Positions 23,213 through 34,286 of a stretch of 49,636 nt of DNA are shown here, in pieces; positions within the stretch are counted from its first letter, which is position 1, and the number at the start of each line of letters is the position of its first letter. Source of the stretch: an uncultured Bacteroidales bacterium (lineage in GTDB: Bacteria > Bacteroidota > Bacteroidia > Bacteroidales > UBA932); the NCBI GenBank assembly GCA_944323445.1, contig CALUSM010000020.1, positions 1 to 49,636 on the forward strand, written 5' to 3'. The notes under the pieces are model-generated. The model saw nothing but the letters and a program-made list of their open reading frames with translations, made no database searches and was not told the origin of the DNA. A program made the translations under genes and the position numbers.

Positions 23213-23220
23213 TACATTTG
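23213..23220 (+). promoter_or_regulatory. Putative promoter -7 element for ispD
   Basis: TACATTTG is an exact TAnnTTTG match 24 bases upstream of the ATG at 23245. It overlaps a possible TTG start at 23218, which would then not be transcribed as coding sequence; this decides the start in favour of the ATG. Confidence 0.48.
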
Positions 23221-23244
23221 GAAAAAATATTTGAAACCCATACG

Positions 23245-23952
23245 ATGCGCGAAAGATATGTCATTATTCCGGCTGGAGGGACCGGTTCAAGGATGGGCTC
23301 CGAAGTACCCAAACAGATGCTTCCTCTCTGCGGCAAGCCTGTCCTCCGTCACAGCATAGAACTGTTTCTGGGCCATCCTTTTAAAGTCAATGTGATAGTC
23401 TCTATAAACGCCTCCATCAGGGAACATTGGCTGGAGTACTGCAGGAAGAATGATTTTGTGTTTCCCAGTATCCTCGTCACCGGAGGATTCACGCGCTTCC
23501 ATTCGGTGCGCAGGGCCCTGAAGTATCTTCCCGACGGGGCGCTTGTTGCGGTTCACGACGGAGTGCGTCCTCTGCTGCGGAGGGAGGACGTGGCGGCGCT
23601 CTACGGTGAGGCGGAGGAATATCCGGCCGTGGTTCCGGTGATACCGGTGGCGGACTCGGTGAGGGAGGTGGTGGAGACCGCCGGTCCGGACGGGGAGCCG
23701 GTGGTATCGTCACGGGTAGTGGACAGGACTCCGCTGAGACTGGTGCAGACGCCTCAGGTTTTCCATACGGAAGTGCTTAAAAAAGCCTACAGTGCGGCAT
23801 ATTCACCTGAGTTTACGGACGATGCCTCGGTTGTGGAAAAAAGCGGCGTACCCCTGCGTTTCCATCAGGGAAGCCGCCTCAACATCAAGCTGACAACTCC
23901 GGAGGACATGGCTCTGGCCAGGGCTGTCATGGAAGCCGGGCTTCTCAGATGA
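23245..23952 (+). CDS. ispD: 2-C-methyl-D-erythritol 4-phosphate cytidylyltransferase
   Basis: A 235-residue cytidylyltransferase of the MEP isoprenoid pathway. Seen: PAGGTGSRMGSEVPKQML (the CTP-binding loop with the conserved Arg and Lys), VAVHDGVRPLL (metal and ribose contacts), RTPLRLVQTPQVF, and TDDASVVEKSG with LTTPEDMALA at the C-terminus. Length and motif order are normal for IspD. It is transcribed alone on the plus strand and overlaps the convergent STAS gene by 8 bases at the 3' end. No ispF is adjacent. Confidence 0.95.
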   Translation: MRERYVIIPAGGTGSRMGSEVPKQMLPLCGKPVLRHSIELFLGHPFKVNVIVSINASIREHWLEYCRKNDFVFPSILVTGGFTRFHSVRRALKYLPDGALVAVHDGVRPLLRREDVAALYGEAEEYPAVVPVIPVADSVREVVETAGPDGEPVVSSRVVDRTPLRLVQTPQVFHTEVLKKAYSAAYSPEFTDDASVVEKSGVPLRFHQGSRLNIKLTTPEDMALARAVMEAGLLR

Positions 23953-24247
23953 TGGTCATAATGCGCGAGAATCCCGTCATGTTGAAGATATCCTTGATCT
24001 GATCCCTCATGTTGAGGATGACGAGTTTTCCGCCCCGGGCATTGACGCTTTTCTGAAGCGTGAGAAAGAGCCTGAGTCCTGAGCTGCTGATGTATTCCAG
24101 CTCGGAGCAGTCGATTTCTATGTCAGGATTTCCTCCTTCCAGCAGCGGTGCCATTTTCTTTTCGAACACATCGGAGTTGGTTGTGTCCAGGCGGCCGGTC
24201 ACCGTGGCCCGCATTTTCCCATTTTCAGTGGTGATTTTCAGGTCCAT
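23945..24247 (-). CDS. STAS-domain anti-anti-sigma factor-like protein
   Basis: A 100-residue single STAS domain of the SpoIIAA/RsbV type. Seen: GRLDTTNSDVFEKKM, then IDCSELEYISSSGLRLFL, in which Ser56 aligns with the phosphorylated serine of SpoIIAA. In known systems the unphosphorylated form binds an RsbW/SpoIIAB kinase and frees its partner. The gene starts 4 bases after the stop of the SpoIIE phosphatase gene, whose product carries both the phosphatase that would dephosphorylate it and an RsbW-like domain that could phosphorylate it. That pairing is inference from adjacency. The final output of the switch is not identifiable in the window. Confidence 0.9.
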   Translation of the reverse strand: MDLKITTENGKMRATVTGRLDTTNSDVFEKKMAPLLEGGNPDIEIDCSELEYISSSGLRLFLTLQKSVNARGGKLVILNMRDQIKDIFNMTGFSRIMTII

Positions 24248-24251
24248 ATCG

Positions 24252-26588
24252 TTAAATGTGTTTTGTTAGTTTCAGTATATTCTCATTTCCTTTGCGCTCG
24301 TATTCCACCCGGTCCATAATCTGTTTTACAAGGAATATGCCCAGGCCGCCTATTCCGCGTTCCTCGGCGCTGAGGGTCACGTCGGCATCGCTCTTTGCCA
24401 GTGGATTGAATGGTATTCCGCGGTCGTATACGGTGTAGGTTATATCATTGCGGTGCCTGGTGAACTTGACGGTTATGCGGTGTCCCGTCTCGCCCTTGGG
24501 GTAGGCATAGAATATGACGTTGGACACGGCTTCCTCCAGGGCGAGGTTGATGCTCATTGTGAGGGCCTGGTCCGCGCCGGCCATGCCGCATGTCTGCTCT
24601 ACGAAAGCGCTGAGCTTTTTCAACTCGCAGACTTGGTTGTCGATGCTGAGGATTCTGGTGTCACTGCTGTCCATGGTGTCGCTTCCTGTGTATTTAATTG
24701 CGAGTATGGTCATGTCATCGCTCTGTGCCGCTTTGCCGACGTGCCGCTCCACGTCGGAGTAGATGCCGGAAACAATGTCGGAGGTGTTCTTGCCTTTCTG
24801 GGTGGCGACGGAGGCCATGAGGCGCTCCTCTCCGTAGAGTTCCCTGCTTGTGTTTTCGGCCTCTGTCAGTCCGTCGGTATAGAGGACGAGGGTGGAACCG
24901 GCCGGCAGCTGGAAATCCCCGTCGCTGTATGCGAAGTCGTGGAAGAATCCAATGGGCAGATTGGGCTCCGGGCTGAGCTTGGTTACGGTCCCGTCGGGCG
25001 AGAGGATTATCGGCGGGTTGTGTCCTGCGTTGCAGTAGGTTATGTGCCCGTTGCGCAGGTCCAGTATTCCTGTGAAGAAAGTGACGAACATGTTGGCGTC
25101 ATTGGTCTCGGAGATGGCCGCGTTGATGGCCGAGACTATTGCCCCGGGGTCGTCCGTGGTGGCGGATATCGAGCGGAAATGGCTGCGGGTGACGGCCATC
25201 AGCAGGGATGCCGGCACGCCTTTCCCGGACACGTCTCCTATGGCGAAGAACAGCCGTCCGTCTTGTATGAAGAAGTCGTACAGGTCTCCGCCTATTTCCC
25301 TGGCGGGGTTGAGGATAGCGTAGATGTCCACATCGTCCCGTTCAGGGAATGGAGGAAATATCTTGGGTACCATGCCCATCTGTATCTCCCTTGCTATGTT
25401 CAGTTCGCTCTCGATGCGCTCCTTGGCGGCGGTGGTGCGCTGCAGCCGTTCCAGATAGGAGGACAGGGAATACTGCATTGCAGAGAATGATCTGCACAGG
25501 CGTCCGACCTCGTCATTTCCGGACAAGGGCGGCAGGGAAGAGTAGAAGTCTCCCTCGGCTATCTTGTCGGCGGCACCTGCCAGCAGGGTCAGGGGACGGG
25601 TGGCTTTGCGGATGGTCATGCCGATGACCAGCGTAAGGATAATGACGGTCACCACCGCTATAACGGCCATCGTCCTTGATATCCGGTACACCCCGGAGAA
25701 GATGTCGCTTTCAGGACAGACAGTGGCTATGCTCCAGCCGTTGGATTTAACGGGGGTGAAAAATATCATGGACGGTTCCCCGTCGAGGGTTATTTTCTCC
25801 ATGCCGGTCTCTCCGTTGATCATTCTCTGTCCGGTCTTCTCAAGTGAGCTGTTGCCGGTGAGAACGGCCTGGGTGAAAATGGTCTCGTTGATTATGAATT
25901 CAGGGTCAGGGTGTACGATGTAGTTGGCGGCCTTGCCTAGCAGGAAGTTGTAGGAATGCTCATAGAGCTTGATGCTGTCTATCGTGCGGGTAATCCAGTC
26001 TGTCTCCAAGCTGGCGCATAAAGCTCCGATGAAACGGCCGTCCTTGTCTTTCAGAGGAATGGAGTAAGAGCACAGGGACAGCTTTTCCCAGACCCGGTCT
26101 ATGTAGGGGTCTGTCCAGTAGCTTTGTCCCGTGCAGCGCGGTATCACATACCAGTCGTAGTAGATGTAATCGTAAAAATCCTTGTGGATTATGAATGATT
26201 TCACTGAGTCTTCAGTCCTGATGGCGTAGGCGGTGAACCGTGGCATGTCCCGGTACAGGTATGGTTCGAGGGATACGGCTATGTCCGTCAGATGGGGAGT
26301 GTTGGTCAGGATACTGCTGATGAGGCTGAGGAACTCGGTTGTGTCACTGTTGTTCATTGCCAGTTTTTCGGCTATGGGCGCAGAGTTCTCCATTGTGACG
26401 GACACAGGGTCCAGAACGTTCTCCATCTCCAGTTTAAGAGCCTTGATCTGGCTGTATGCGTTGGTGACGGCTTCTTTCTGCACCAGGCTGTAGCTGAGTC
26501 TGTATACTGTCAGTGCGGTGACAATGAACAGAAGAGCCGTCAGCAGGATGACGTATATACTGATTTTATTTGCAAATGACTTCAGCAT
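24252..26588 (-). CDS. Membrane sensor: dCache-HAMP-SpoIIE phosphatase with fused RsbW-like kinase domain
   Basis: A 778-residue protein. A membrane helix (about 10-30) is followed by a periplasmic double-Cache sensor (about 40-295, with YDWYVIP...SYWTDPYID typical of dCache), a second helix (about 305-325), a HAMP domain (about 326-380), and a short coiled linker. A PP2C/SpoIIE phosphatase follows (about 400-635: GGDLYD with metal Asp435, GDVSGKG, TDG, and DD at 624-625). Last is a GHKL ATPase of the RsbW type (about 645-778: EEAVSN N-box, DRGIPFNP, GIGGLGI). Catalytic residues of both enzymes are present. It sits 5 bases after an orphan substrate-binding protein gene and 4 bases before the STAS gene, suggesting a ligand-controlled partner switch. 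Confidence 0.93.
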   Translation of the reverse strand: MLKSFANKISIYVILLTALLFIVTALTVYRLSYSLVQKEAVTNAYSQIKALKLEMENVLDPVSVTMENSAPIAEKLAMNNSDTTEFLSLISSILTNTPHLTDIAVSLEPYLYRDMPRFTAYAIRTEDSVKSFIIHKDFYDYIYYDWYVIPRCTGQSYWTDPYIDRVWEKLSLCSYSIPLKDKDGRFIGALCASLETDWITRTIDSIKLYEHSYNFLLGKAANYIVHPDPEFIINETIFTQAVLTGNSSLEKTGQRMINGETGMEKITLDGEPSMIFFTPVKSNGWSIATVCPESDIFSGVYRISRTMAVIAVVTVIILTLVIGMTIRKATRPLTLLAGAADKIAEGDFYSSLPPLSGNDEVGRLCRSFSAMQYSLSSYLERLQRTTAAKERIESELNIAREIQMGMVPKIFPPFPERDDVDIYAILNPAREIGGDLYDFFIQDGRLFFAIGDVSGKGVPASLLMAVTRSHFRSISATTDDPGAIVSAINAAISETNDANMFVTFFTGILDLRNGHITYCNAGHNPPIILSPDGTVTKLSPEPNLPIGFFHDFAYSDGDFQLPAGSTLVLYTDGLTEAENTSRELYGEERLMASVATQKGKNTSDIVSGIYSDVERHVGKAAQSDDMTILAIKYTGSDTMDSSDTRILSIDNQVCELKKLSAFVEQTCGMAGADQALTMSINLALEEAVSNVIFYAYPKGETGHRITVKFTRHRNDITYTVYDRGIPFNPLAKSDADVTLSAEERGIGGLGIFLVKQIMDRVEYERKGNENILKLTKHI

Positions 26589-26593
26589 GCTGT

Positions 26594-27559
26594 TTATTTC
26601 CGTTCTTTGACGAAATCTCCGTATTCAATGGGTGAGAGGATGAAGTTGTTGTCCAGAAACACCTTGACTGTAAAGTCAAACTGGGATTTGTCGAGACTGT
26701 AGGATACATCTCCGCTGCTGTTCTCCTGCAGTTTCAGGACAGTGCGCAGCATGAATTCCTGGTTGGCCCTGCTGGTATTTATTCCTGCCTGCCGTATCTG
26801 TTGTGTTATTGTTGCAACGGTCGACCTGAAATTCTTAGGATCACGGACCCACTCCCACCCCCGGATTGTGGCCTGTACGAAACGGTCCACTACGTCCTTA
26901 TGTGCGGCATAGAATTCCTCTGTAGTGTATAGTCCGTCCTCGGGGATGTCATAGCCTTCGTCCCGGAGATAGATAAGATTGTCTTCGGTGAGTTCTATAC
27001 CGGCCATCCTGATCTGGAAGTATTCGTTGTACTCCATCGCCAGCATGGCGTCCACGGCCCCTTCTACGAACGGATATATGTTGGAGAGGATGGAGACCCA
27101 CTCCAGATTGAGTCCGTTGTTGGTGGCAAAGCACATGGCTGCTTCAGAGAATCCGTTGGACCACCGTCCGATACGTTTCCCGTCGAGTTCATGTATGTTT
27201 TTTATAGGAGTCCTGGATATGATCATGCCGGCACTTGTCTGCGAAGTCTGGAGGATATTGACAAGAGGAGTGCCTAGATCCCTGGCTATCAGGGCATCCC
27301 CCAGCATTGACGTGATGATGTCGGCATTGCCTTCCTTTATGGCGTCGGTGCTGGATACGGATTCCTGGTCGTAGATCAGCGTCATGTCTATGCCGGCCTC
27401 GTCGTAGAAGCCGAGGTTGTGGGCCATGATGATACCGGCAAACTGGCACTGGGGCAGCCACTGGATCATGAGGACAACCGAGTCTTTCTGTGCATGTGCA
27501 GGATTCATGGACACATACAGCAGGACTACAGTCATAAGTATAAGACGTAATATTTTCAT
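26594..27559 (-). CDS. Orphan periplasmic substrate-binding protein, NMT1/THI5-like
   Basis: A 321-residue exported protein. The start ATG at 27559 gives a clean signal peptide (MKILRLILMTVVLLYVSMNP, then AHA before the likely cleavage). The mature part matches the NMT1/THI5-like (ThiY, SsuA) periplasmic-binding fold: VVLMIQWLPQCQFAGIIMAHNLGFY, then EAGIDMTLIYDQES, DIITSMLGDALIARD and LDGKRIGRWS. Such proteins bind small molecules such as pyrimidine precursors or sulfonates for an ABC importer. No permease or ATPase of that type is nearby. Instead the next gene, 5 bases on, is a dCache sensor phosphatase, so a sensory role is plausible. The ligand is unknown. A longer frame to 27793 lies in prmC coding sequence and is rejected. 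Confidence 0.87.
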   Translation of the reverse strand: MKILRLILMTVVLLYVSMNPAHAQKDSVVLMIQWLPQCQFAGIIMAHNLGFYDEAGIDMTLIYDQESVSSTDAIKEGNADIITSMLGDALIARDLGTPLVNILQTSQTSAGMIISRTPIKNIHELDGKRIGRWSNGFSEAAMCFATNNGLNLEWVSILSNIYPFVEGAVDAMLAMEYNEYFQIRMAGIELTEDNLIYLRDEGYDIPEDGLYTTEEFYAAHKDVVDRFVQATIRGWEWVRDPKNFRSTVATITQQIRQAGINTSRANQEFMLRTVLKLQENSSGDVSYSLDKSQFDFTVKVFLDNNFILSPIEYGDFVKERK

Positions 27560-27569
27560 GCCTGTAGCT

Positions 27570-28481
27570 TTAAAACCATTTTGTAAAAGCCGCGAATCTG
27601 GGTTTGCCGTGGAAGTCCTCCAGTATCTCCACATCGCTGAATCCACGGCTCTCGAACAGTTCCCGGACCTGATGTCCGTATGCCTCGTTGATCTCGAAGA
27701 AGCATTTTCCTCCCATCTTGACCAAGGCTTCAGCCCATCCTGCCAGGGCCTTGTAGAAACGCAGGGGGTCGCTGTCCGGCACGAACAGCGCATCTTCCGG
27801 CTCGTAGTTCAGCACGTTCGGGGCCATGAAGTCTTTCTCGGACTCACATACATAGGGGGGATTGGATATCAGGATGTCCATTTCCTCGATGTTGGGAAGG
27901 TCCGTGCCGTCTTTCTCTCCGGGAGGTCCTTCCAGTATGTCGGCATGGAAAAATACAGGAGGGTCCGGTACCGGCTGGCGGCAGGATTCGTCCAGGTAGA
28001 TTTTCTGGCTGCGGGCTGTTTCGAGGGCAGCCTCGTCAACATCGAAAGCGAATACCTCCGCAGTGGGAAATGCTGCTGCCAGAGTCCATGCTATGCAGCC
28101 GGAACCGGTCCCGGCATCGAGTATGCGCAGTCCGCGTGTCTCTCCGGAGCTTCTCAGGGCAGAAATGGCCAATCGGCACATCTGGGCTGTCTCGGGCCGG
28201 GGAATGAGGACTGATTCATTGACGCGGAAAGTGTGCCCCTCGAAGTTCTCCTCACCTATGACGTACTGGACAGGCCTGTCTGCGGCCAGCTCGTCGAGGG
28301 CATTCTGTATCCGTACCAGCTCCGGTTTGGGGATGATGACACCAGGCTCGACAGAATACTCGTACGGGGACAGTCCCAGGAAGTGTGAGAGTATGCGGAT
28401 GGAGATCGCCTTGGCCTCACCAGGCGAGTACTGCAGGGCAAGGCTGTCGGTGGCTTTGGTTACGAATTCTTTCCGCGTCAT
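27570..28481 (-). CDS. prmC: Release factor glutamine methyltransferase PrmC
   Basis: A 303-residue SAM-dependent methyltransferase that methylates the GGQ glutamine of peptide chain release factors. Seen: an N-terminal helical domain, RPVQYVIGEENFEGHTFRV, VLIPRPETA, the SAM-binding ILDAGTGSGCIAWTLA, and the glutamine-binding NPPYV motif. Length is slightly above the family average. It lies 3 bases after ddl and 10 bases before the substrate-binding protein gene, inside a continuous minus-strand run. Confidence 0.95.
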   Translation of the reverse strand: MTRKEFVTKATDSLALQYSPGEAKAISIRILSHFLGLSPYEYSVEPGVIIPKPELVRIQNALDELAADRPVQYVIGEENFEGHTFRVNESVLIPRPETAQMCRLAISALRSSGETRGLRILDAGTGSGCIAWTLAAAFPTAEVFAFDVDEAALETARSQKIYLDESCRQPVPDPPVFFHADILEGPPGEKDGTDLPNIEEMDILISNPPYVCESEKDFMAPNVLNYEPEDALFVPDSDPLRFYKALAGWAEALVKMGGKCFFEINEAYGHQVRELFESRGFSDVEILEDFHGKPRFAAFTKWF

Positions 28482-28484
28482 AGG

Positions 28485-29495
28485 CTATTCCTCCCGGTTG
28501 CGGTCTATGATGTCTGTCAGGAAGTCTTCCATGGTCATGCCGGCCTGCCGTACCATCTGGGGTACCAGGCTGGCCTCAGTCATGCCGGGATTGGGATTGA
28601 GTTCCAGAAAATAGGGCTTTCCGTCCACTCCAAGGATGAAGTCCATGCGTACCAGACCGGAGCATCCCAGACGCCGGAATATCCTGACTGCCTCGTCCTG
28701 AATCCTGACCCGCTCGGCCTCTGGCAGGGGGGCAGGGCAGACCTCGCTGCTGGCTCCCTCGTATTTGGCTTCGTAGTCAAAGAATTCTCTCCGTGGAATG
28801 ATTTCTATGAGGGGCAGGGCGCGCGGGCCGTCTCCGCAGTCGTAGACCCCGCAGTCGATCTCCCGGCCGAATACGGACTTCTCGACAATTACCGTGTCGC
28901 TCTCCCTGAATGCTTTCTCCAGGGCGGCGTCCAGCTCTTCGGGGCTGTGTATTTTCGAGACACCGAAACTGGAGCCTCCGCCGCAGGGCTTGACGAAGGC
29001 GGGCAGCCCCACGGCTCCGGTCACCTGGCAGGGGTCATACGGGTCGTCCCGGCGGAGCATGATGTCACCGGCCATGCAGACCCCGCTGTCCCTCAGGTAT
29101 GACTTGCAGGCGTATTTGTCAAAAGAGATTGCGGCGCACAGGGAGGAGCATCCCACGTAACTGATGCCCAGCATGTCGAAGTACGCCTGGAGGCGGCCGT
29201 TCTCCCCGGGGTCTCCGTGGATGATAATGAAGACTTTGTCGAACGATATTCTTTCCCCTCCTTCGGGAGTGAATGAGAAGTCATTGCGGTCTATGGGGTA
29301 TTTCCGTTCCTCTTTCCCGTCCGGGGACGGGAGGACTGCCCACCATCCTCCACGGGTAAGAAGCACCTCGTAGACGGTGCGTCCGGCGTTGTGGAGCCAG
29401 CCGGCCACGCTCTTGCCGCTTTTGACGGAAATTTCCAGCTCTGAGGAGTAGCCTCCGTATACTACTGCCAGCACTTGATCTCGATTAGATTTCAT
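28485..29495 (-). CDS. ddl: D-alanine--D-alanine ligase
   Basis: A 336-residue ATP-grasp ligase making the D-Ala-D-Ala dipeptide of peptidoglycan precursors. Seen: VVYGGYSSELEISVKSG (N-terminal substrate loop), IHGDPGENGRLQAYFDMLGI, PAFVKPCGGGSSFGVSKI (ATP loop), FGREIDCGVYD, and C-terminal FLELNPNPGMTEASLVPQM with the Mg-binding Glu and Asn. The ATG at 29495 gives the family N-terminus (MKSNRDQVLAVVYGG) and lies 19 bases after the PBP1A stop. A longer frame to 29555 overlaps PBP1A and is not credible. Confidence 0.95.
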   Translation of the reverse strand: MKSNRDQVLAVVYGGYSSELEISVKSGKSVAGWLHNAGRTVYEVLLTRGGWWAVLPSPDGKEERKYPIDRNDFSFTPEGGERISFDKVFIIIHGDPGENGRLQAYFDMLGISYVGCSSLCAAISFDKYACKSYLRDSGVCMAGDIMLRRDDPYDPCQVTGAVGLPAFVKPCGGGSSFGVSKIHSPEELDAALEKAFRESDTVIVEKSVFGREIDCGVYDCGDGPRALPLIEIIPRREFFDYEAKYEGASSEVCPAPLPEAERVRIQDEAVRIFRRLGCSGLVRMDFILGVDGKPYFLELNPNPGMTEASLVPQMVRQAGMTMEDFLTDIIDRNREE

Positions 29496-29514
29496 AGTAT
29501 TGTTATTTTGCGGT

Positions 29515-31872
29515 TTACATATTGAAGAATGAGTTCTCGTCCTCGCCGGTGTCATTCAGCGTGTCGTTGTCACTGCCGTCGCACTCAGTGTCGAAATGGA
29601 TTCCTGGAGGGGCGATGAATCGGTCTTCCGCCGAGATTCCGAGTGTGCCGTCATTCATGACTTTCTGCATGAAGAGTCCCCAGATGGGGAGGGCGGTGTT
29701 GGCTCCCTGTCCCTGTGACATGCTCTCGAAATGCACTTGACGGTCCTCGGCGCCTACCCAGACTCCCGCTGTCAGGCCTGGCGTGTAGCCAATGAACCAT
29801 CCGTCGGACTTGTCGTTGGTGGTGCCGGTCTTGCCGGCCACCGGACCTTCCAGACCGTAGCGCCAGCGCAGGCGTGCTCCGGAGCCTTCATTGACCACGC
29901 CTTCCATGAGATTGACCATGAGGTAGGCGGTGGCCTCGCTTACCGCTTCCCTCTTTCTGGGGCTGAATGTGCCCAGCACATTTCCCTCGCTGTCCTCAAT
30001 GCGGGTGACCATCATGGGGTCTATGTGTACACCGCGGCTGGGGTAGGTGTTGTAGGCTCCGACCATCTCCATCAGCGTGATATCGGCCGGTCCGAGGCAG
30101 AGGGAGGGGTAGGGCGCCAGGTAGGATGTGATGCCCAGCTTACGGCACATCTCGACCATGGCGGTGGGACCGAACTGGCGCATCAGGTAGGCGGAGATAT
30201 TGTTGCTGCTCCGTGTCAGTCCCCACTTGAGGGTGACTTCCTTTCCTATGTATTCCAGACGGTCCTCGCTTTCGGGTGTCCAGGTCGTGTCGGCCAGGAC
30301 GAAGGTCTGGGGCACGTTGAGAACCTTGTCGCAGGGGTAGTAGCCTTCCTGCATGGCCAGGGTATAGAGGAACGGCTTGATGGTCGAGCCTACCTGTCGC
30401 TTGCCCTGACGGGCGTTGTCGTATTTGAAATACCGGTAGTCGGGGCCTCCGATGTAGGCCTTGATATGGCCTGTGGAGGGTTCCATGGCTATGAACGAGG
30501 CTCTCAGGAAAGATTTGTACCAGCGTATGGAGTCATCGGGTGTCATGACCGTATCGATGTACCCTGGTGCTTTCCAGGAGAATACCCTCATCTCGGTCTT
30601 CTCCTTGAAAGACCGGTCGATCTCTTTCTCTCCTGCTCCTCTGCTGCGCATGTTGCGGTAGCGGTCGCTCCATTTGCGGGCCTGGGACATGAGCGTCTGT
30701 GTCAGTTCGGCGGGGACCTCCTTGGCGAAAGGACGGTCGGGATTGTCGGCGAGGTCCTCGAAGAACGCCGGCTGCAGGTCTGTGCTCAGGTGCTGCACCA
30801 CAGCCTCCTCGGCATAGCGCTGCATGACAGTGTTGATGGTGGTGTAGATGGTCAGGCCGTCCTTGTCCAGGCTGTACGGGGTGCCGTCAGGCTTGAAGTT
30901 CTTGTTGAGCCATCCGAACAGGGGATCGTTCTCCCACAGATCCAGGTCGGCTCTGTAGTCCTCCACGAAATAGTAGTTGCTACTGACAGGTTCCGACGCG
31001 CTCATGTACTTGCGGAGCATGTCCCTGAAATAGGGTGCCAGGCTGGTGTTGTGGTCCTGCTGCCGGTAGTCCAGGACTATTGGGAGAGCAGTGAGGGAGT
31101 CGGCGTCGGCCTGGGTAATGAACCCGTACTTGCTCATCTGGCTGATCACGTGGTTGCGCCGGGCGATGGATTTGTCGTAGTTGAGCACTGGGTTGAACCT
31201 GGTGGGCTTGTTGACGGCGCCCACCAGGACCGCGCTTTCCTGAAGGTTGAGCCCGATGGGCTCTTTATTAAAAAAGGTGTTGGCGGCTGCCTTGATGCCG
31301 TAGGCGTTGCTGCCGAAGAAGATGGCGTTCATGTACATGGCCATAATCTCGTTCTTGGTGTAGTTGCGCTCGAGCTTTACTGCCGTAATCCATTCCTTGA
31401 ACTTGCTTACAACCAGTCTGAAAGCAGCTTCTCCGGGGAATTTGCCCGTGGCCTCCTCCCTGGGAAAGAGGGTCTTGGCCAGCTGCTGTGTGATGGTGCT
31501 GCCTCCGCCACCGGAGCGTGCGTTGCCCAGGATGATGGTCTTCACTCCGACTCTGGCCAGACTGCGGAAGTCTATGCCGCAGTGCTTGTAGAACCGTACG
31601 TCCTCAGTGGCGACGGCTGCCGATACGATATAGGGAGAGAGCTCATTGTATCCTACGTGGGTGCGGTTCTCGATGTGGTATGTCCCGAGCAGCTTTCCGT
31701 CTTCGGAAATGAGTTCTGTGGCCAGGTAGGTCTTCGGATTCTCCAGCTCCTCGAACGATGGTATCTCCGCGAAGATACCCACTCCGGCAATGAACAGCAG
31801 CAGAACTCCTATGGGAATGAAAACCACGCACCAGACGGCGATTATCAGTCTTCTCTTGGTTTTTTCTTTCAT
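29515..31872 (-). CDS. mrcA: Class A penicillin-binding protein (PBP1A-like)
   Basis: A 785-residue bifunctional peptidoglycan synthase anchored by an N-terminal helix (about 8-34). The GT51 glycosyltransferase domain shows VATEDVRFYKHCGID with the catalytic Glu, GGGGSTITQQLAKTLF, and KNEIMAMYMNAIFFGSNAYGI. The transpeptidase domain shows GSTIKPFLYTLAMQ (Ser/Lys), a SSN motif within LTRSSNNISAYL, and GKTGTTNDKSDGWF. It begins the minus-strand run with ddl and prmC and is divergent from topA. A weak -7-like element (TAACTTCG on the minus strand, 31894-31901) is the only promoter hint. Confidence 0.95.
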   Translation of the reverse strand: MKEKTKRRLIIAVWCVVFIPIGVLLLFIAGVGIFAEIPSFEELENPKTYLATELISEDGKLLGTYHIENRTHVGYNELSPYIVSAAVATEDVRFYKHCGIDFRSLARVGVKTIILGNARSGGGGSTITQQLAKTLFPREEATGKFPGEAAFRLVVSKFKEWITAVKLERNYTKNEIMAMYMNAIFFGSNAYGIKAAANTFFNKEPIGLNLQESAVLVGAVNKPTRFNPVLNYDKSIARRNHVISQMSKYGFITQADADSLTALPIVLDYRQQDHNTSLAPYFRDMLRKYMSASEPVSSNYYFVEDYRADLDLWENDPLFGWLNKNFKPDGTPYSLDKDGLTIYTTINTVMQRYAEEAVVQHLSTDLQPAFFEDLADNPDRPFAKEVPAELTQTLMSQARKWSDRYRNMRSRGAGEKEIDRSFKEKTEMRVFSWKAPGYIDTVMTPDDSIRWYKSFLRASFIAMEPSTGHIKAYIGGPDYRYFKYDNARQGKRQVGSTIKPFLYTLAMQEGYYPCDKVLNVPQTFVLADTTWTPESEDRLEYIGKEVTLKWGLTRSSNNISAYLMRQFGPTAMVEMCRKLGITSYLAPYPSLCLGPADITLMEMVGAYNTYPSRGVHIDPMMVTRIEDSEGNVLGTFSPRKREAVSEATAYLMVNLMEGVVNEGSGARLRWRYGLEGPVAGKTGTTNDKSDGWFIGYTPGLTAGVWVGAEDRQVHFESMSQGQGANTALPIWGLFMQKVMNDGTLGISAEDRFIAPPGIHFDTECDGSDNDTLNDTGEDENSFFNM

Positions 31873-31908
31873 TTTTTGTCAAATAAATTCGTGCGAAGTT
31901 AGAAAATT

Positions 31909-31941
31909 TTTGGTTTTTCTCTCACTTTATCCTTTACTTTG
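31909..31941 (+). promoter_or_regulatory. Putative topA promoter
   Basis: TTTG at 31909-31912, 21 bases, then TTACTTTG at 31934-31941, which differs from TAnnTTTG only at its second base. The topA ATG at 31962 lies 20 bases downstream of the -7 element. The spacing fits the Bacteroidota pattern approximately. Confidence 0.4.
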
Positions 31942-31961
31942 CACGTTCATTTAACGGAGAT

Positions 31962-34286
31962 ATGGTAGAGAACTTAGTAATCGTAGAGTCGCCGGCAAAG
32001 GCGAAGACCATCGAAAAGATATTGGGAAAGGACTATACAGTGCGCTCAAGCTTCGGTCACATCCGGGATCTTGCCAAGAAGAATCTGGGAATAGACATTG
32101 AGCACGGTTTCATTCCGCAGTACGAGATATCCCCCGACAAGAAAAAAGTAGTGGCGGAGCTTAAGGCCGCTTCTGACGAGGCTGCCGTGGTCTGGCTGGC
32201 TTCCGATGAGGACCGCGAGGGAGAGGCCATTGCATGGCATCTGAGGGAAACTCTCGGCCTCGAGCCGGTTAAGACCCGCCGTATTGTGTTCCACGAGATT
32301 ACCAAAGACGCGATACTCCATGCCATCCAGACACCAAGGGACGTGGATATGAACCTGGTCATGGCCCAGCAGGCCCGCAGGGTCCTGGACCGGCTCGTGG
32401 GATTTGAACTCTCGCCTATTCTCTGGAAGAAGATAAAGCCGTCTCTCTCGGCCGGCCGCGTGCAGTCGGTGGCCCTCCGTCTGGTGGTGGAGCGCGAGAG
32501 GGAGATAGCCGGGTTTGCTGCCAGGCCGTATTTCCGTGTGGAAGGAGTATTCATACCCGGGAACGGAGGAAGCCGTACCCATGTCACCGGCGTGCTCAGC
32601 CGCAGGTTCGACACCAGGGAGGAGGCGGCCGCTTTCCTGGACAGGTGCCGTGACTGTGTCTTCACCGTCGGTTCCGTGGACAGGAAGGAAGTGCCCAGAT
32701 GTCCCGCGCCTCCGTTCACCACATCCTCTCTGCAGCAGGAGGCGGCACGCAAGTGCGGATTTTCCGTAAGCCAGACTATGTCCATAGCCCAGCATCTGTA
32801 CGAGTCGGGATTCATCACCTATATGCGTACCGACTCCACGACCCTCTCCAAGCTGGCCATAGGTGCGGCGAAGGCCTGGATAACTGACAATTTCGGCCCG
32901 GAATACCACAAGGCCCGCCAGTACAAGACGGGTGTCAAAGGCGCTCAGGAGGCCCACGAGGCCATACGTCCGACTTACATCGCCAATACCGACATTCCCG
33001 GCACGGCCGCCGAGAAGAAGCTCTACAATCTCATCTGGAAACGTACCGTGGCCTCGCAGATGGCTGACGCCCGTCTGGAGAAGACCGATGTGACAGTTGT
33101 CGGAGACCGGATTCAGGAGCATTTTGACGTGACCGGATCCACCGTGCTCTTCGACGGATTTCTGAAAGTCTACATTGAGTCCACCGATGACGATACCCAG
33201 GGCAGCGAGGAGGAGAAGATACTGCCTCCCATGCATCCCGGGGACGTGATGCTCCGCGACAGCATCACTGCGTCAGAGAAATACACCTCCCATCCTCCCC
33301 GCTATTCGGAGGCATCCCTGGTCAAGAAAATGGAAGAGCTGGGCATAGGACGTCCTTCGACCTACGCTCCCACCATCTCCACCCTGCATCAGAGAGGTTA
33401 TATCGTCCGTCAGGACAGGAAAGGGGAGGAAAGGACAGTTACCGTGCTGACTCTCAGAGGTGACACGGTTACTGAGACAGGAAAGAAAGAGACCTCCGGT
33501 TCCGAGAAGGGACGTCTCTGTCCGGAGGACATCGGGGTGCTGGTTACCGATTTCCTCGAGCAGACATTCCCGGCCATTATGGACTACGGGTTTACGGCGA
33601 AAGTCGAGACCGCCTTTGACCGCGTGGCTGCGGGCAAGTATGTATGGAACAAGATACTGGCTGATTTTTACAAGCCTTTCCATGCTCGTGTGGAGGAGAC
33701 TATGAAGGAGAGTGCCCCGATGAAGTCCCGCAAGGTCCTGGGCACCGATCCGGCTACGGGCAAGACCGTCATCGCACGGATGGGACGTTATGGTTCGGTG
33801 GTGCAGATAGGAGAGGATGACGACCCTGACAAGCGTATCACCGGGCTCGAGAAGGGCCAGCTGATAGAGTCAGTCACTCTGGAGGACGCGCTCAGGCTGT
33901 TCGTGCTGCCGCGTACCCTGGGAGAGTATAGGGGACAGCCCGTAATCTGCTCCAAGGGCAAGTACGGCCCGTATGTCAGGTACGGCTCCATGTATGTGTC
34001 ACTCAAGCGCGGTCAGGATCCGTACACGATTGTCCTGGATGCTGCCGTCAAGCTCATCGAGGACCACGAGGCGAGTCAGAAGAACAAGGACATCAAGTCA
34101 TTCCCAGAAGCGGACATAGCTGTGCTGAACGGCCGTTTCGGCCCGTATATCAAGCATGCCGGAACCAACTACAGGATTCCCCGCGGGACGGATCCGGCTT
34201 CCCTGACTGAGGAACAGTGCCGGGAGATAATAGCCTCCTCAGAGGAAAATAAGAAACCTGTCAGGAAGTCGGCATCAAGGAAGTAA
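31962..34286 (+). CDS. topA: DNA topoisomerase I (type IA)
   Basis: A 774-residue enzyme that relaxes negative supercoils by single-strand passage. Seen: the Toprim start NLVIVESPAKAKTIEKILG, WLASDEDREGEAIAWHL (metal-binding acidic triad), QQARRVLDRLVGF, LSAGRVQSVALRLVVERE, the active-site region GFITYMRTDST with the nucleophilic Tyr, and IGRPSTYAPTISTL. The C-terminus has repeated Toprim-C-type modules (GRYGSVVQIG, GKYGPYVRYG, GRFGPYIKHAGTNYRIPRG) instead of zinc ribbons, as is common in Bacteroidota. The Lrp gene starts 9 bases downstream. Confidence 0.97.
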   Translation: MVENLVIVESPAKAKTIEKILGKDYTVRSSFGHIRDLAKKNLGIDIEHGFIPQYEISPDKKKVVAELKAASDEAAVVWLASDEDREGEAIAWHLRETLGLEPVKTRRIVFHEITKDAILHAIQTPRDVDMNLVMAQQARRVLDRLVGFELSPILWKKIKPSLSAGRVQSVALRLVVEREREIAGFAARPYFRVEGVFIPGNGGSRTHVTGVLSRRFDTREEAAAFLDRCRDCVFTVGSVDRKEVPRCPAPPFTTSSLQQEAARKCGFSVSQTMSIAQHLYESGFITYMRTDSTTLSKLAIGAAKAWITDNFGPEYHKARQYKTGVKGAQEAHEAIRPTYIANTDIPGTAAEKKLYNLIWKRTVASQMADARLEKTDVTVVGDRIQEHFDVTGSTVLFDGFLKVYIESTDDDTQGSEEEKILPPMHPGDVMLRDSITASEKYTSHPPRYSEASLVKKMEELGIGRPSTYAPTISTLHQRGYIVRQDRKGEERTVTVLTLRGDTVTETGKKETSGSEKGRLCPEDIGVLVTDFLEQTFPAIMDYGFTAKVETAFDRVAAGKYVWNKILADFYKPFHARVEETMKESAPMKSRKVLGTDPATGKTVIARMGRYGSVVQIGEDDDPDKRITGLEKGQLIESVTLEDALRLFVLPRTLGEYRGQPVICSKGKYGPYVRYGSMYVSLKRGQDPYTIVLDAAVKLIEDHEASQKNKDIKSFPEADIAVLNGRFGPYIKHAGTNYRIPRGTDPASLTEEQCREIIASSEENKKPVRKSASRK

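Follow-up and report, generated by a model that had tools for sequence, protein, structure and literature searches.

The window analysed here, a stretch of 49,636 nucleotides from an uncultured Bacteroidales bacterium (contig C20 of a source genome of 2.29 Mb in 59 contigs, 88.9% complete), carries a cassette of three genes encoding an exported NMT1/THI5-like substrate-binding protein (SBP), a sensor anchored in the membrane and carrying a periplasmic dCache domain, and a small STAS protein. We consider it fairly probable that these three products form a partner switch gated by the periplasmic binding protein, with the SBP acting as co-receptor of the sensor and Ser55 of the STAS protein as the residue that is switched. 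Support for this reading comes from the domains of the three products, their presence or absence as a block within the genus, the adjacency of SBP and dCache genes among relatives, the swapping of outputs behind this pair, the correlated divergence of the two partners and a search of the source genome that turned up no NMT1-type permease. Many families retain the pairing of SBP and dCache even where the sensor has a different output domain.

The three genes and their products

The features concerned are listed below, with positions in the window and residues in amino acids (aa).

26594..27559, minus strand: SBP, exported NMT1/THI5-like substrate-binding protein, 321 aa (ATG at 27559; Pfam PF09084)
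24252..26588, minus strand: membrane sensor dCache-HAMP-SpoIIE-HATPase_c_2, 778 aa (Pfam; two hydrophobic stretches)
25689..26483, minus strand: periplasmic dCache domain of the sensor, about aa 36-300 (MCP-like_PDC_1 and dCache_1; relatives via profile search)
25473..25616, minus strand: HAMP linker of the sensor, aa 325-372 (Pfam PF00672)
24690..25262, minus strand: SpoIIE-type PPM phosphatase domain of the sensor, Pfam aa 443-633 (Pfam PF07228)
24261..24626, minus strand: RsbW-like HATPase_c_2 kinase domain of the sensor, aa 655-776 (Pfam PF13581; motif counts)
23945..24247, minus strand: STAS-only protein, 100 aa, putative RsbV/SpoIIAA-like phospho-switch (Pfam PF01740, NCBIfam ant_ant_sig)
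24083..24085, minus strand: Ser55 codon, predicted phosphorylation site (alignment with SpoIIAA Ser58; conservation)
27570..28481, minus strand: prmC, left cassette border (Pfam PrmC_N; adjoins ispD in 6 cassette-free congeners)
23218..23952, plus strand: ispD, convergent right cassette border (Pfam IspD; synteny)

An earlier note, made from the sequence alone, had placed the three genes at 23945-27559, in exact agreement with these coordinates, with gaps of 5 bases between SBP and sensor and 4 bases between sensor and STAS gene, and its domain calls for all three products are borne out by Pfam. The SBP matches NMT1 (PF09084) at E 4e-33, with 115.6 bits vs. a cut-off of 20.5, and begins with a hydrophobic stretch at aa 1-19 as judged by hydropathy, in keeping with an exported member of the NMT1 family. 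The sensor matches MCP-like_PDC_1 (2e-15), HAMP (1e-10), SpoIIE (8e-56) and HATPase_c_2 (9e-24; 84.3 bits vs. a cut-off of 27.4), in addition to dCache_1 at 3e-11, which falls just under the curated cut-off (43.6 vs. 45 bits). Since hydropathy places the dCache domain between two hydrophobic stretches of the sensor (aa 9-27 and 308-326), this domain should face the outside of the membrane, as had been claimed. The aspartic acid residues of a PPM phosphatase (D435, just ahead of the Pfam SpoIIE stretch, D452, D572, D624 and D625) are intact, each being conserved in 75/75 sequences, and the N, G1 and G2 boxes of the kinase domain (E686 and N690 of the N-box, D722, G747, G748 and G750) are likewise intact and nearly invariant. 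The proposal that one sensor may both add and remove the phosphate on the STAS protein draws its one support from these intact kinase and phosphatase motifs.

The STAS protein matches Pfam PF01740 at 2e-18 and the NCBIfam model ant_ant_sig at 7.5e-21, and is the sole match to PF01740 in the source genome, the search having been made with this family and not with STAS_2 (PF13466). Among 48 aligned STAS proteins, Ser54, Ser55 and Gly57 are conserved in all 48, and Ser56 in 38. By hand count on an alignment with SpoIIAA (chain 1th8_B), the counterpart of Ser55 is Ser58 and that of Ser54 is Asp57, and an excerpt of a published account gives Ser58 as the phosphorylation site of SpoIIAA (PMC11418112). 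The STAS fold and the serine at the position of SpoIIAA Ser58 together mark the protein as RsbV/SpoIIAA-like, and its phospho-serine is likely to be Ser55; the earlier assignment to Ser56 was therefore off by one residue.

A permease-free cassette within the genus

Eleven genomes of the genus were listed, of which five (that of the window, G075, G109, G120 and G141) carry both SBP and sensor, with the gene order prmC-SBP-sensor-STAS-ispD. In the remaining six, neither gene was matched at E 0.001 (G098 yielded a weak match to the HAMP region only), and prmC there directly adjoins the convergent ispD, the interval being free of all three genes. The flanks pbp1A-ddl-prmC and ispD-purH-mreB are otherwise kept across the genus, as far as the contigs extend (L164 ends near ispD, putting purH and mreB out of reach, and in L036 ispD is at the contig end). 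Because the prmC and ispD flanks join in genomes without the cassette, this unit consists of exactly SBP, sensor and STAS gene, is free of permease genes and is gained or lost as a whole. The nearest named record for the SBP belongs to Candidatus Coprenecus merdigallinarum (75% identity).

The transcript may extend beyond the three genes and possibly includes prmC, since on the upstream side the directon continues through prmC (10-base gap), ddl (3-base gap) and pbp1A (overlap of 41 bases) with no obvious interruption. A scan of positions 23500-32100 for promoters and terminators gave sites no commoner than in shuffled sequence.

Pairing of SBP and dCache across Bacteroidota

Relatives of the SBP were searched at the levels of family, order and phylum, yielding 34, 52 and 57 places, respectively, with the window in each. 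Neighbourhoods were taken for all 33 other places of the first search, 40 of the second and 19 of the third, i.e. 92 of the 139 distinct places outside the window, a sample biased to the stronger matches: in the second search G010 was already in the set and 10 places with frames of 544-883 aa, resembling NMT1-kinase fusions, were left out, and the 37 left out of the third comprise 5 strong, 11 mostly long-frame and 21 weak matches. A dCache gene lies beside the SBP gene in 82/92 neighbourhoods, 81 of them found on the same strand by script and one (L053, in which an early start codon hid the adjacency from the script) by inspection. The gap between the two genes is at most 40 bases, or they overlap, in 79/81, the long overlaps arising in part from the earliest-start rule. 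Another 5/92 neighbourhoods (L127-L131) have the NMT1 domain fused to a histidine kinase, three of them with receiver domains as well; these fusions are SBP sensors in a single protein and show that the NMT1 fold is used for signalling. No dCache neighbour was seen in the last 5/92, among which L104 is at a contig edge. This adjacency, together with gain or loss as a block in the genus, upholds the earlier view of the SBP as a partner of the sensor instead of a transporter component, and places the sensor, as far as linkage goes, among the SBP-activated receptors.

The outputs joined to the dCache domain are far from uniform. Among 81 sensors we counted 44 with SpoIIE, 14 with SpoIIE plus an RsbW-like domain, 17 with a histidine kinase (16 of these 17 loci also hold a receiver-SpoIIE gene), one chemoreceptor and five with a dCache alone. 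Of these five, L111 is truncated where its contig stops and L113 terminates 12 bases short of its contig end, while L142, L146 and L147 look genuine, with the SBP beside a membrane-anchored dCache that has no output domain. Genes near the pair of L146, in the same orientation, encode Band_7, ABC_membrane/ABC_tran, MFS transporter and TonB-dependent receptor proteins. In the chemoreceptor locus (L133:6930-9952) the SBP gene overlaps that of a dCache-HAMP protein with an MCPsignal domain.

The trees of SBP and dCache are largely congruent, and L122, with a SpoIIE output, is nested in the kinase clade of both. The correlation between pairwise SBP distances and pairwise dCache distances has an r of 0.90 (n=81), the best of 1000 permutations reaching 0.10; with SpoIIE as a yardstick (n=59), the correlations are 0.91 for SBP-dCache, 0.78 for SBP-SpoIIE and 0.75 for dCache-SpoIIE, with partial correlations of 0.79 for SBP-dCache given SpoIIE and 0.36 for SBP-SpoIIE given dCache, all based on simple identity and driven in part by the species history that neighbouring genes share. 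With these limits the data are suggestive, yet it would be difficult to account for a separately encoded protein tracking the dCache domain more tightly than does the SpoIIE domain of the same polypeptide unless SBP and dCache were functionally linked.

Besides this shared history, several findings weigh against a co-receptor role of the SBP: 1) four standalone SBPs (L063, L068, L126 and L149) have no dCache neighbour; 2) only 44/82 loci have a STAS gene in the same orientation among the 8 kb that follow, 35/82 having none over a remaining contig of 1.5 kb or more and 3/82 lying near a contig end, so that the complete trio is less regular than the SBP-dCache pair; 3) a control of 20 sensor loci, picked for having no SBP hit, indeed holds none, and in a midpoint-rooted tree with some weak supports, 15 of the 22 control dCaches (counting the second sensor of L058) cluster separately from the SBP-linked dCaches, in two groups, but 7/22 (L080; L071, L075, L078 and L079; L069; the second sensor of L058) fall among or beside them, indicating that some close relatives work without an SBP; 4) AlphaFold2 models of SBP and sensor, computed as single proteins from three-row alignments (window, L004 and L005), were poor, with mean predicted local distance difference test (pLDDT) scores of 45 and 47; 5) 18/82 related loci carry ABC permease genes in the same orientation among the 8 kb that follow, as recognised with profiles seeded in this analysis. 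The seven nested SBP-less dCaches look like local losses or duplications.

The last of these points, together with the fact that NMT1 proteins mostly serve ABC importers, might be taken to mean that the SBP is an ordinary importer component, its permease being encoded elsewhere and its neighbour merely regulating uptake. We find this very improbable. The SBP is the sole NMT1 match in the source genome, and no cognate NMT1-type permease was found in this 88.9%-complete assembly, whose only two BPD_transp_1 proteins are named PstA and PstC above NCBIfam cut-offs and lie beside PstB and PhoU; the earlier statement that no ABC permease accompanies the SBP thus extends to the source genome. Each of the four cassette-bearing congeners has 2 BPD_transp_1 hits among the matches listed, in a survey that took in 50 of the genomes sampled for SBP neighbourhoods and whose counts are a lower bound. 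The permeases in the 18 loci are of other classes: polar-amino-acid-type permeases are fused or adjacent to SBP_bac_3 in L040, L046, L047, L049 and L108 and in the distant relatives L135, L138-L141, L143-L145 and L150, whereas branched-chain-type permeases accompany ABC_sub_bind proteins in L095, L100, L105 and L118, with Pfam confirming the permease in L040, L046, L047, L095 and L100. Since all 18 loci supply dedicated binding proteins for these permeases, the NMT1 protein is not accounted for by them. Whether the SBP consistently lies next to ABC permease genes in relatives, which would have spoken against the proposed model, thus has a mixed answer, and a blanket claim that such SBPs come without permeases does not hold.

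How the SBP may act on the sensor

From the observed domain content and linkage we infer a contact between SBP and dCache, a ligand, a direction of effect and a target along the following lines. The SBP, either empty or loaded, would dock on the dCache domain; the HAMP linker would relay this docking as a shift in the balance between the phosphatase and kinase activities of the sensor; the STAS protein would consequently be phosphorylated or dephosphorylated on Ser55; and the unphosphorylated form would bind a target bearing an RsbW-like or another STAS-binding surface.

Whether the dCache might sense a small ligand of its own, with the co-transcribed SBP acting alongside by, for example, buffering or scavenging the same compound, can be judged in part from the dCache pocket. 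Its canonical residues are kept in most relatives (W146 in 79/81, Y147 and Y162 in 75/81 each, and Asp at position 193 in 73/81), and related dCache-SpoIIE sensors exist without an SBP (the 20 control loci), both in line with direct sensing. On the other hand, position 193 is Ser in the genus of the window, the SBP-dCache correlation exceeds that between dCache and SpoIIE within one polypeptide, and the pairing survives changes of output; we therefore regard direct sensing as rather unlikely, and favour an SBP that is co-receptor of the sensor. The motif of amino acid-binding dCache domains (dCache_1AA) includes R126 and D173 in PctA, according to an excerpt of the source (PMC10104139). With equivalences assigned from spacing and pattern around the WY pair and not from structure, position 144, corresponding to R126, is Tyr in the window and Arg in 0/81 dCaches, and the equivalent of D173 is the Ser at position 193, arguing against an amino acid sensor of this kind. 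The same two features lead us to favour docking of the SBP over hand-over of its ligand to the dCache, as the earlier note had it. L097 and L098 also carry Ser at the Asp position. A coupled change in the SBP pocket was considered and dropped, as 3 of the 8 sequences lacking the Asp keep the usual SBP residues.

Relation to known systems

NspS, an SBP of a family other than NMT1, has to our knowledge no role in transport. It is described as a periplasmic binding protein working with the membrane protein MbaA in signalling by cyclic di-GMP (c-di-GMP) (PMC5646818, PMC8967002). The window system would resemble this pair in having an SBP act with a membrane signalling protein, but differs in output, which is c-di-GMP turnover in NspS-MbaA and a Ser phosphatase/kinase on a STAS protein in the window. 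LuxP is an SBP dedicated to autoinducer-2 (AI-2) that acts with the double-PDC periplasmic domain of LuxQ, a sensor switching between kinase and phosphatase. The likeness lies at the input, an SBP with a double-PDC sensor, and the difference in the phosphorelay output and in the class of SBP; the histidine-kinase variants found among relatives (e.g. L052 and L118) are closer to LuxP-LuxQ in logic.

For the output, the nearest parallels are partner switches. The best NCBIfam match of the sensor is the SiaA model (4e-23, far below its cut-off); SiaA carries HAMP and SpoIIE-type domains, SiaB is a separate kinase, and we know of no SBP in the SiaABCD system. In Pseudomonas aeruginosa this system pits a sensor phosphatase against a kinase on a small switch protein, which has the diguanylate cyclase SiaD as target; threonine phosphorylation is reported for the system (PMC7647112). 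The output proposed for the window is alike in its phosphatase and kinase acting on a switch protein with a non-sigma target, and unlike in that SiaABCD has the separate kinase, a threonine site, a different target and no known SBP. RsbU/RsbW/RsbV and SpoIIE/SpoIIAB/SpoIIAA share the same three biochemical domains, with Ser55 at the position of SpoIIAA Ser58, whereas the window fuses phosphatase and kinase in one membrane protein and adds an SBP input. Rv1364c, the best PDB match of the sensor (4e-17), likewise combines a SpoIIE phosphatase with a subsequent RsbW-like domain in a single polypeptide, and is not known to be a dCache-SBP system.

A survey of binding-protein-activated receptors names, in the portion seen, chemoreceptors, sensor kinases, c-di-GMP enzymes and Ser/Thr kinases, with phosphatases not in that list (PMC9602780). 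Our searches of full-text literature, judged by titles and the beginnings of abstracts and with most subscription journals outside their reach, returned no description of an SBP acting on a SpoIIE-type sensor. We take the cassette to be a real, conserved sensory module, undescribed as far as these searches reach, with a likely input mechanism as outlined from sequence comparison. If true, this would add a receptor class present in many Bacteroidota, explain NMT1 proteins that annotation would label as parts of ABC transporters, and offer compact three-gene units for rebuilding SBP-to-STAS signalling in vitro. The interpretation first placed on these genes is, as a whole, partly supported.

Candidate targets of the STAS protein

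Genes downstream of the sensor in relatives suggest STAS targets other than sigma factors. In several of them an ABC ATPase ends in an extra domain of about 115 aa, and a profile of eight such domains matched a profile of ten RsbW-like domains with 97.7% probability (E 1.4e-12). The proteins are amino-acid-type ABC ATPases with an RsbW-like C-terminus, at the following places:

L046:2080-3162
L139:12201-13292
L140:11854-12951
L138, L143, L047, L049 and L040

When the C-terminal pieces of L139 and L040 were scanned on their own, Pfam assigned no domain to either. As the ATP-binding boxes of the RsbW-like C-termini look degraded by eye, these may be docking domains rather than kinases, and a STAS gene is present in 7/8 of these loci (not L138). 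This degenerate RsbW-like domain is a candidate STAS target, and regulation of an ABC ATPase by a STAS protein has a precedent in MlaB-MlaF. Other downstream products that recur, as judged by profile, are class III cyclase-like proteins in 6/82 loci (L101, L107, L109, L110, L112 and L117; Pfam-confirmed in L101, L109 and L112) and RsbW-acetyltransferase fusions in 3/82 (L110, L114 and L115; acetyltransferase named by Pfam in L114 and weakly in L115). The cassette of the window has no ABC importer, cyclase or acetyltransferase fusion.

A classical sigma partner switch, in which the STAS protein would free a sigma factor from the RsbW domain, fits the domain set by the logic of RsbU-RsbW-RsbV. 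We nevertheless hold it improbable, for the kinase domain is tethered to a membrane sensor, where an anti-sigma factor would not usually be found, and the neighbours annotated, which are only part of all neighbours, include ABC importers, cyclases and GNAT fusions but no sigma gene, no genome-wide search for sigma genes having been made. As a tentative extension, and with doubt on our side outweighing confidence, we postulate that Ser/Thr phosphorylation of STAS proteins gated by dedicated NMT1-type SBPs is Bacteroidota-wide and that these STAS proteins act directly on class III cyclases, acetyltransferases and amino-acid ABC importers instead of sigma factors, the degenerate RsbW-like C-terminus gained by the importer ATPase serving as the site where STAS docks; if true, membrane transport would come under post-translational control by a partner switch.

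Other partner-switch genes

Elsewhere in the source genome, a C23 protein matches HATPase_c_2 above the cut-off about 3.5 kb from a NuoF-like gene, and a SpoIIE-like protein without an NCBIfam name is encoded on C53 beside a hydrogenase-type gene (by eye); both were set aside. A third, weak HATPase_c_2 match is on C22. On C6 (G000:C6, L157:5400-8559), two histidine-kinase-like genes (by eye) are followed by a receiver-SpoIIE gene that has neither a STAS nor an RsbW gene recognised as a neighbour; its product might share, or act on, the STAS protein of the window.

Among the SBP-less loci, L071, L075, L078 and L079 encode a DAGK/YegS-type lipid-kinase-like protein that carries a fused RsbW-like domain (e.g. 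L075:7095-8399; recognised by Pfam in L075 and by profile in the other three) directly upstream of the dCache-SpoIIE sensor, preceded in 4/4 by RelA/SpoT- and HD_4-like genes. L082, L084, L085 and L086 hold a dCache-SpoIIE-RsbW sensor and a STAS gene beside RelA/SpoT-, HD_4- and APH-like genes (4/4, by profiles, with Pfam run on cluster members), and a link of partner switching to guanosine tetra- and pentaphosphate, (p)ppGpp, is possible in these four. STAS domains are also fused to APH (L065:1473-2687), to TCAD9 (L124:10814-13120) and to a domain of about 300 aa, which we call STASx (L095:1639-2889) and which recurs beside ABC_sub_bind proteins.

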